64,000 bases of DNA, taken from Rhizobacter sp. AJA081-3. GTDB lineage: Bacteria; Pseudomonadota; Gammaproteobacteria; Burkholderiales; Burkholderiaceae_C. Location of the stretch: the NCBI RefSeq assembly GCF_017795745.1, contig NZ_CP059067.1, positions 2,232,001 to 2,296,000 of the forward strand, in the 5' to 3' direction. The position numbers and the translations under genes are program-made. Positions 60,611-63,028 of this stretch are shown here, one piece after another (within the stretch, counting starts at the first letter, position 1; every line of letters starts with the position of its first letter). Below the pieces are notes generated by a model. That model made no database searches. It saw only the letters and a list, made by a program, of their open reading frames with translations, and had not been told where the DNA came from.

Positions 60611-63028
60611 ATGTCCACCAACGTGGCGCTTTACATCGCGCTGGCCTGCGGTCTGGCCGCCGTCGTCTACGGCTTCGTTCAGCGAAGCTGGATTCTCAGC
60701 CAGAGTCCCGGCAATGCCCGCATGCAGGAAATCGCCGGAGCGATCCAGCAGGGAGCGGCCGCCTATTTGGCCCGGCAGTACAAGACCATCGCGGTCGTCG
60801 GCGTGGTGCTGGCCATCCTGATCGGCATCTTCCTCGACGGCACCACCGCGATCGGCTTCGTCGTCGGCGCGGTGCTTTCGGGCGCTTGCGGCTTCATCGG
60901 CATGAACGTCTCGGTGCGCGCCAACGTGCGCACCGCGCAGGCCGCGACCAAGGGCATCGGCCCGGCACTCGACGTCGCCTTCAAGGGCGGCGCGATCACC
61001 GGCATGCTGGTGGTCGGCTTGGGCCTGCTGGGCGTGACGATCTTCTTCATGTTCATCACCGGCAACGGCAACCTCACGCCGGACAAGAGCCTGTCGAGCG
61101 TGCTCAAGCCGCTGCTCGGGCTGGCCTTCGGCTCGTCGCTGATCTCGATCTTCGCGCGACTGGGCGGCGGCATCTTCACCAAGGGCGCCGATGTGGGCGC
61201 CGACCTGGTGGGCAAGGTCGAAGCCGGCATCCCCGAAGACGACCCGCGCAACCCCGCAGTGATCGCCGACAACGTGGGCGACAACGTCGGCGACTGCGCC
61301 GGCATGGCCGCCGACCTGTTCGAGACCTACGCCGTGACGCTGATCGCGACGATGGCGCTGGGTGCGCTGATGGTCGCCTCGGCGCCGATGCAGGCCGTGG
61401 TCTACCCGCTGCTGCTCGGCGGCGTGTCGATCATCGCGTCGATCATCGGCTGCTCGTTCGTCAAGGCCTCGCCGGGCATGAAGAACGTCATGCCCGCGCT
61501 GTACAAGGGCCTGGCCGTCGCCGGTGTGCTGTCGTTCATCGCCTTCATCGGCGTGACGATGCTGGTGATGCCCGACACCGCGCTCGGTGCCGGCACGCAG
61601 TGGAAGCTGATCGGCTCCTGCGCCGTCGGCCTGGTGCTGACCGCCGCGCTGGTCTGGATCACGGAGTTCTATACCGGTACGCAGTACTCGCCGGTCCAGC
61701 ACATCGCGCAAGCCTCGACGACAGGCCATGGCACCAACATCATCGCCGGCCTGGGCGTGTCGATGCGCTCGACGGCCTGGCCGGTGCTGTTCGTCTGCGC
61801 TGCCATCATGGCCGCCTACGGCCTGGCCGGCTTGTACGGCATCGCCATCGCGGCGACTGCCATGCTCAGCATGGCCGGCATCGTGGTCGCCCTCGACGCC
61901 TACGGCCCGATCACCGACAACGCCGGCGGCATCGCCGAGATGTCGGAACTGCCGGCTAGCGTGCGCGATGTCACCGACCCGCTGGACGCGGTGGGCAACA
62001 CCACCAAGGCGGTGACCAAGGGCTACGCGATCGGCTCGGCCGGCCTGGCCGCGCTGGTGCTGTTCGCCGACTACACACACTCGCTCGAAGGCCGCGGCAT
62101 GAGCGTGAGCTTCGACCTGAGCGACCCGAAGGTGATCGTCGGCCTGTTCATCGGCGGCCTGATCCCCTACCTCTTCGGCGCGATGGCGATGGAAGCCGTT
62201 GGCCGCGCTGCGGGCTCGGTGGTGGTCGAAGTTCGTCGCCAGTTCAAGGAGATCAAGGGCATCATGGAAGGCACGGCCAAGCCCGAGTACGGCAAGGCCG
62301 TCGACATGCTGACCACGGCGGCAATCAAGGAAATGATCGTCCCGTCGCTGCTGCCGGTGGTCGTCCCCGTGATCGTGGGCATGACGCTCGGCGCCGCGGC
62401 CCTGGGCGGCCTGCTGATGGGCACGATCGTGACCGGCCTCTTCGTGGCGATCTCGATGTGTACCGGCGGCGGCGCCTGGGACAACGCCAAGAAGTACATC
62501 GAAGATGGACACCACGGCGGCAAGGGCAGCGAGGCCCACAAGGCAGCTGTGACCGGCGACACGGTGGGCGATCCCTACAAGGACACCGCCGGCCCGGCCG
62601 TGAACCCGCTGATCAAGATCATCAACATCGTCGCGCTGCTGATCGTGCCGTTGCTGCCGATGCCGCCCAAGGCGGCTGCCGCCGCGCACGCCGCGCCTCC
62701 CGCCGCGACGGCCCCCGCAGCGGCGGCCACCACGGCGAAGTTCTACTTCGACAGCGGCAAGGCCGACCTCCCGGCCAACGGTGCCGAGAGCATCGCCAAG
62801 CTGGCAGCGGCCGGAAAGTCCGGCGGCAAGGCGGTGATCAGCGGATACCATGACGCCACCGGTGATCCGGCCCAGAACGCCGAACTGGCCAAGCAGCGCG
62901 CGATCGCCGTGCGCGATGCGCTCAAGGCCGCTGGCGTACCGGAGGACAAGATCGAACTGAAGAAGCCCGAGCAGATCAACGCCGGCGATGCCGCAGAAGC
63001 CCGGCGCGTCGAAGTGACCGTGCAGTGA
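60611..63028 (+). CDS. hppA: K+-independent proton-pumping pyrophosphatase fused to an OmpA-like domain
   Basis: Sixteen-span inner-membrane pump that uses pyrophosphate hydrolysis to export protons. The 805 residues contain [20 protein letters not shown] and [20 protein letters not shown] near 185-235. Lys466 and Thr469 in [10 protein letters not shown] mark the K+-independent class. After about residue 693 an Ala/Pro linker leads to an OmpA-like domain (about 707-805): [18 protein letters not shown] with Asp748, [17 protein letters not shown] with Arg763, and RRVEVTVQ. The Asp/Arg spacing of 15 equals that of E. coli OmpA's diaminopimelate-binding pair. Start ATG 60611 with GGAG upstream. 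Confidence 0.95.

Follow-up and report, generated by a model that had tools for sequence, protein, structure and literature searches.

Membrane pyrophosphatases (mPPases) that carry a C-terminal OmpA-like domain are already on record: a 2024 review reports them in Paucibacter sp. KCTC 42545 and other bacteria, and leaves the role of the OmpA-like domain to be elucidated (PMC11210485). Another set of fusions, those of PufM/PufC with OmpA, likewise places an OmpA-like domain on photosynthetic electron-transfer proteins; these were characterized as relatively rare, and possibly the product of wrong gene models, in a 2025 paper that describes the domain of PufC as N-terminal in its text and as C-terminal in a figure legend, and the relevant passages of which draw no link to the PPase or to oxidases (PMC12650329). 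As far as the pertinent parts of these two sources extend, our literature searches found no published link between the PPase fusion and the PufM/PufC fusions (PMC11210485, PMC12650329), and a search conducted partly via titles and abstract openings found no literature on the compact module described below in oxidases. The peptidoglycan-binding domains of OmpA, Pal, OprF, and PA0833 share with this module the fold and an Asp/Asn/Arg pattern; however, they sit on outer-membrane or other envelope proteins, whereas the module is shorter and is attached to an inner-membrane pump. MotB and the type VI TagL/TssL proteins are located in the inner membrane, and in MotB, the OmpA-like domain anchors an ion channel to peptidoglycan. 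These proteins resemble the fusion in that a periplasmic OmpA-like domain is joined to an inner-membrane protein but, unlike the fusion, they are not pyrophosphate (PPi)-driven pumps. Because the PPase-OmpA architecture has been described previously, the novelty of the present findings lies in the shared module, which is common to several energy-converting hosts, with PufC-module fusions, in particular, found here in several genomes.

The fusion that we analyzed is encoded in Rhizobacter sp. AJA081-3, within a window of 64,000 nucleotides (the whole stretch of DNA that was examined; contig NZ_CP059067.1, positions 2,232,001 to 2,296,000), to which all coordinates below refer. A preliminary description of this DNA had placed at 60611-63028 a pump followed in the same frame by an OmpA domain; these coordinates proved exact, and both domains were found by Pfam, whereas its suggestion that this architecture had not been described is contradicted by the report on Paucibacter and its relatives (PMC11210485). 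The Paucibacter mPPase and the window protein have the same architecture and similar lengths (810 and 805 amino acids, respectively). The hppA-OmpA fusion gene (60611..63028, plus strand) extends from an ATG at 60611 to a stop codon at 63026-63028, without internal stops, and an AAGGAG ribosome-binding-like site (60597..60602, plus strand), read from the sequence, lies 8 nt 5' of this ATG, although a GTG further upstream (60536) shares the frame. Residues 1-683 (60611..62659, plus strand) form the H+-PPase core, as delineated by Pfam, alignment, and the full-length structural model. The H_PPase profile (PF03030) is matched at full length (profile positions 2-645 of 645, at residues 16-678; E 1.4e-273), and there is no other H_PPase match in the one-contig, 5.40 Mb genome. 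The core resembles the solved membrane pyrophosphatases 8b37, 4a01, and 4av3, and K466 and T469, which are taken as K12.46 and T12.49 on the basis of the motif rather than structure, are invariant in 31 aligned fusions. Lys 12.46 and Thr 12.49 are the pair of substitutions by which K+-independent H+-PPases are recognized (PMC10897367) and, by this class rule, the pump is predicted to be an ordinary K+-independent H+-PPase that would pump protons. In the Pfam scan, the window protein has no domain other than OmpA in common with MotB or TagL/TssL and, because its N-terminal part is H_PPase and not the beta-barrel of OmpA porins, the window protein is not an OmpA porin. An assembly or frame artifact, or chance, is ruled out by the single contig, the presence of the same fusion in other genomes, and purifying selection.

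The last membrane helix comprises residues 656-681 in the full-length model, which was built from 31 aligned fusions and also shows the C-terminal module with OmpA-like strands and helices. Between this helix and the module lies an Ala/Pro-rich linker of 23 amino acids (residues 684-706; 62660..62728, plus strand), defined by the full-length model and by linker comparison, in which pLDDT drops below 50 at residues 686-696 and 698-705; the model is shallow, with a mean pLDDT of 70.9 and values below 50 also in parts of the core (372-385 and 649-663). Jointly with one other, the linker of the window protein is the shortest of 71 (23 amino acids, against a range of 23-82 and a median of 40), a length that may only just suffice to bring the module to the wall. 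In PPases, the N-termini of even-numbered helices lie on the cytoplasmic side (PMC8657866), and because these helices start in the cytoplasm, the C-terminal end of helix 16 comes to lie on the non-cytoplasmic side. The module, which follows helix 16, should therefore be in the periplasm, and the family topology thus agrees with the orientation proposed in the preliminary description (PMC8657866).

The compact OmpA-like module itself occupies residues 707-805 (62729..63025, plus strand), with concordant indications from Pfam, an AlphaFold2 model, Foldseek, and the full-length model. The Pfam OmpA profile (PF00691) matches residues 712-783 over profile positions 1-76 of 98, with an E-value of 8.4e-13 and a score of 48.9 bits (cut-off 27.2). 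The AlphaFold2 model of the module, made from 43 aligned modules (pLDDT 81, pTM 0.71), has its strands and helices in the OmpA order and, together with Foldseek matches to OprF, OmpA, and Pal, indicates the beta-alpha-beta-alpha-beta OmpA fold. The top Foldseek match is the peptidoglycan-binding domain of OprF (5u1h; E 4.8e-8, TM 0.84), and the complex of Acinetobacter baumannii OmpA and a peptidoglycan peptide (3td5) is recovered at E 5.1e-7 and the same TM of 0.84, both TM values being normalized by the query, that is, the module model; further matches include PA0833, Pal, TolB/Pal complexes, TagL (5m38), and MotB (5y40). The OmpA fold, on which the earlier reading of this domain had been made to depend, is thereby recovered. 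In contrast, the review gives a very low TM of 0.052 to Escherichia coli OmpA, apparently against the full-length OmpA model, whereas the value of 0.84 obtained here pertains to the isolated domain (PMC11210485).

In the alignment of fused modules, Asp748 (62852..62854, plus strand) and Arg763 (62897..62899, plus strand) are the equivalents of the Asp/Arg pair that binds diaminopimelate in the OmpA family, as the preliminary description had numbered them. In A. baumannii OmpA, the diaminopimelate ligands are Asp271 and Arg286, and the OmpA-C-like protein PA0833, which keeps the equivalent residues, binds peptidoglycan (PMC5974059). Asp748 is conserved in 74 of the 75 PPase-fused modules, and Asn756 (62876..62878, plus strand) and Arg763 in all 75; when loci selected with patterns containing these residues are left aside, the counts are 44/45, 45/45, and 45/45. 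Loss of the pair in homologous fusions, which was specifically looked for, is thus limited to rare exceptions: Ser replaces Asp in one PPase fusion (L122/L190, with the same Ser-containing stretch), and among 16 PPase fusions from an order-wide search, two of them from genomes already counted, Asp is present in 15 and Ala in one (L288). The passages of the review that concern this architecture test no residues (PMC11210485), whereas conservation of Asp and Arg is demonstrated here; by itself, however, this conservation is no proof of binding because both residues are likewise characteristic of OmpA-family domains in general. PufC-fused modules show a different pattern: of seven, six have Ser at the Asp position, five of them in the window's genus and the sixth in a different genus of its family. 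Asp persists in the remaining one, which comes from family f13, and in three additional f13 modules. In the PufC modules of the window's genus, Asp is absent, and the Asn, the Arg, and the glycines are retained. The Rhizobacter genome itself encodes, outside the window, a PufC with a module in which Ser replaces the wall-binding Asp (L061:1690-3348), and the presence of PufC suggests either a phototroph or a close relative of one.

The same fusion is present in other genomes, with 10 of 46 PPase rows positive, including the window's own row and one 181-amino acid fragment; by reading, seven of these 10 run through the module and three show a second match beside the pump. In the window's genus, four of the seven pumps carry the module (G000, G002, G006, and G007) and the other three (G003, G004, and G005) have an Ala/Pro tail only, without the module, whereas no pump match was found in the eighth genome (G001). 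Among 112 distinct PPase cores, 71 possess the module; in 27, the core is followed by an Ala/Pro tail (27-87 residues) and nothing more, and the remaining 14 are bare, stopping within 6 residues. Because these cores are not a random sample (40 stretches are mainly long open reading frames (ORFs) among the matches listed, and further loci were chosen by module patterns), 71/112 overstates the frequency of the module, and 10/46 is the fairer figure. The tail-only pumps (L089, L014, L106, L113, L127, and 22 further loci) include several that end in AASK or ASQP. A group of five pumps (L127, L113, L128, L119, and L136; support 90) has only such tails, which raises the possibility of a separate function for the Ala/Pro tail.

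On the PPase core tree, which does not separate gain from loss, the state of the module changes at least 20 times, with 13 of these changes forced by starred branches. Three losses appear to be readable by our own inspection of the sequences, the cleanest being that in L135, the core of which is nearly identical to that of L150 and has similar flanks; L135 lacks the module, and what seem to be its last codons remain out of frame beyond a new stop. A putative module relic with a weak profile match (E 0.0093) lies 3' of the stop in L088, and the terminus of L137 resembles a truncated module start, that is, the first strand. With the module missing from pumps of close relatives and hence labile on the PPase, pumping should not need it, and it should be dispensable for that function. 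Nevertheless, where present, the module has dN/dS values between 0.02 and 0.42, below 1 in all 18 pairs compared (0.06 in the window's pair), and its dN exceeds that of the core in 15 of these 18 pairs, which were chosen by hand among tree neighbors and in some of which dS is saturated (3.4 in one case).

The same compact module extends well beyond PPases. By Pfam, its hosts, with the module at the C-terminus, include PufC, COX2 with cytochrome c, FixO, FixP, and a cytochrome c, as well as YidB/DUF937 proteins and HlyD/CusB-type adaptors; in L259, the module lies between two cytochrome c domains and, in another case, it precedes an ammonium transporter. Across 300 genomes of the order, there are 63 strong matches (at least 92 bits) among the matches listed; the next row scores 71 bits and, from there down, the matches resemble ordinary OmpA proteins by frame length. 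Energy-conversion proteins account for 36 of the 63 (PPase 18, COX2 10, PufC 5, FixP 2, and cytochrome c 1), and the other 27 comprise four of the DUF937 type, four BON-like proteins (L292, L293, L294, and L296, with what we take, from its appearance, to be a BON-type region), two adaptors, one ammonium transporter, 15 single-span stand-alone modules, and one unassigned match (L297, without a host). These labels derive from similarity to Pfam-labeled references, from Pfam, or, for small proteins, from inspection by eye (nine of the 63, with L270 counted as single-span in this way). The profile itself drew on PPase, PufC, oxidase, and stand-alone modules and may therefore lean towards these hosts; at most 16 candidates were scored per genome. 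Of 398 sampled genomes across the phylum, 15 contain a module match at E <= 1e-14, of which 13 belong to the order, one to another order of the class, and one lies elsewhere in the phylum; the order with most module matches is, by the named records, Burkholderiales. The Rhizobacter genome has nine further OmpA-domain matches, of which the seven included in the module tree form a side of their own (support 98, with a long-branch warning) and the remaining two fall below the threshold for this tree; the origin and direction of module transfer were also sought in this tree, which has too few columns for that purpose and joins long branches. Within the window's genome, modules on different hosts are only 39-50% identical, with no matched pairs evident. 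In G012, the module of a cytochrome c (L040) shares 83% identity with the PPase module of the same genome (L020), the nearest of those compared, which is a sign that the L040 module may have been copied within this genome. The 53 stand-alone rows (L042, L044, L161, L213, and similar loci) mostly consist of a membrane segment, a linker, and the module, and L289 and L290 are periplasmic adaptors of the HlyD/CusB type that end in the compact module.

The divergent neighbor of the fusion gene encodes a soluble inorganic pyrophosphatase (PF00719; 59819..60502, minus strand), the orientation having been checked in the window only. Of the 112 PPase stretches, 31 are too short upstream to be counted; among the other 81, with at least 700 bases upstream, 76 contain a homolog of this enzyme at some position. 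A FemAB-like GNAT protein (PF04339, E 8.4e-142; 55820-57013, plus strand) is encoded two genes from the soluble pyrophosphatase. Next to stand-alone modules, a ChaC-like ORF (L213:3078-3677) is matched in 42 other loci of 53. The ten neighbor groups run on Pfam, out of 26 recurrent ones, yielded ChaC, PNPOx, glyoxalase, Cu/Zn superoxide dismutase, an IlvD fragment, and five groups without a match, and no functional clue emerged from these. A sequence scan found no promoter-like sites and two terminator-like sites, against 1.9 expected by chance, neither of them 3' of the fusion gene.

Taken together, these observations point to the PPase module as a putative peptidoglycan tether on an ordinary pump, a reading to which we assign a probability of about 0.55. 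Beyond helix 16, on the periplasmic side, the C-terminus would continue through a flexible Ala/Pro linker into the compact OmpA-like domain, which most likely docks on the meso-diaminopimelate of peptidoglycan through Asp748 and Arg763. The dimeric pump would then be tethered to the wall, with two modules per dimer, and the tether might limit the diffusion of the pump or hold the inner membrane and the wall together, with the module acting as a presumed accessory outside the pumping mechanism. The Pfam match to OmpA, the fold similarity at TM 0.84, the conserved Asp, Asn, and Arg, dN/dS below 1, and the low-confidence linker make such a tether the most likely role, and the anchoring of an ion channel to peptidoglycan by MotB could serve, by analogy, as a precedent. 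Gain and loss of the module among close relatives argues against an essential tether, and the rare Ser or Ala at the Asp position, the Ser in six of seven PufC modules, and the short linker count against a tether in general.

The PufC modules of the window's genus, in which Asn, Arg, and the glycines are present without the Asp, would be consistent with an adaptor role, in which the modules dimerize and thereby cluster their hosts (the PPase, oxidases, PufC, and small single-span proteins) as patches of energy-converting complexes, whether or not the wall is bound. OmpA C-terminal domains typically dimerize (PMC5974059), and a single compact module family is common to PPase, COX2, FixO/FixP, PufC, and cytochromes c; however, the low identity and lack of evident matched pairs among the modules of one genome, and the retention of Asp and Arg, for which pure dimerization has no obvious need, make an adaptor unlikely. 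Less probable again is a mere passenger, a weakly selected tail gained and lost without much effect on the cell, notwithstanding the repeated changes of module state on the core tree (20 or more, of which starred branches force 13), the apparent relics and truncation in L135, L088, and L137, the Ala/Pro tail alone in 27 of the 112 sampled cores, and the elevated module dN in 15 of 18 pairs: dN/dS of 0.02-0.42, Arg763 in 75 of 75 modules, and the recurrence of the module on several energy proteins all speak to the contrary. We give the least credence to a periplasmic partner other than the wall, in the manner of Pal with TolB; Pal and TolB/Pal complexes are indeed among the Foldseek matches, but the recurrent neighboring genes (soluble PPase and ChaC-like), a type of evidence that concerns neighbors only, indicate no periplasmic partner.

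Beyond the tethering of the PPase as such, the occurrence of the same module on several energy-converting proteins suggests a common anchoring of energy-converting membrane proteins in related bacteria. A bolder generalization, which we regard as possible but doubtful, is that the module is a general periplasmic tag, found mainly in Burkholderiales and repeatedly joined to the machinery of the proton-motive force (H+-PPase, oxidase subunit II, cbb3 FixO/FixP, PufC, and other cytochromes c), which would fix these complexes to the wall or to each other, such that the energy-converting membrane would be partly anchored. The repeated natural switching of the module state on the same pump provides matched pairs of relatives for direct testing. 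If the domain does bind the wall, peptidoglycan would serve as an anchor for an ion pump and, by extension, for complexes of respiration and photosynthesis, and such anchoring would affect the diffusion and clustering of these complexes as well as the spacing of the envelope.
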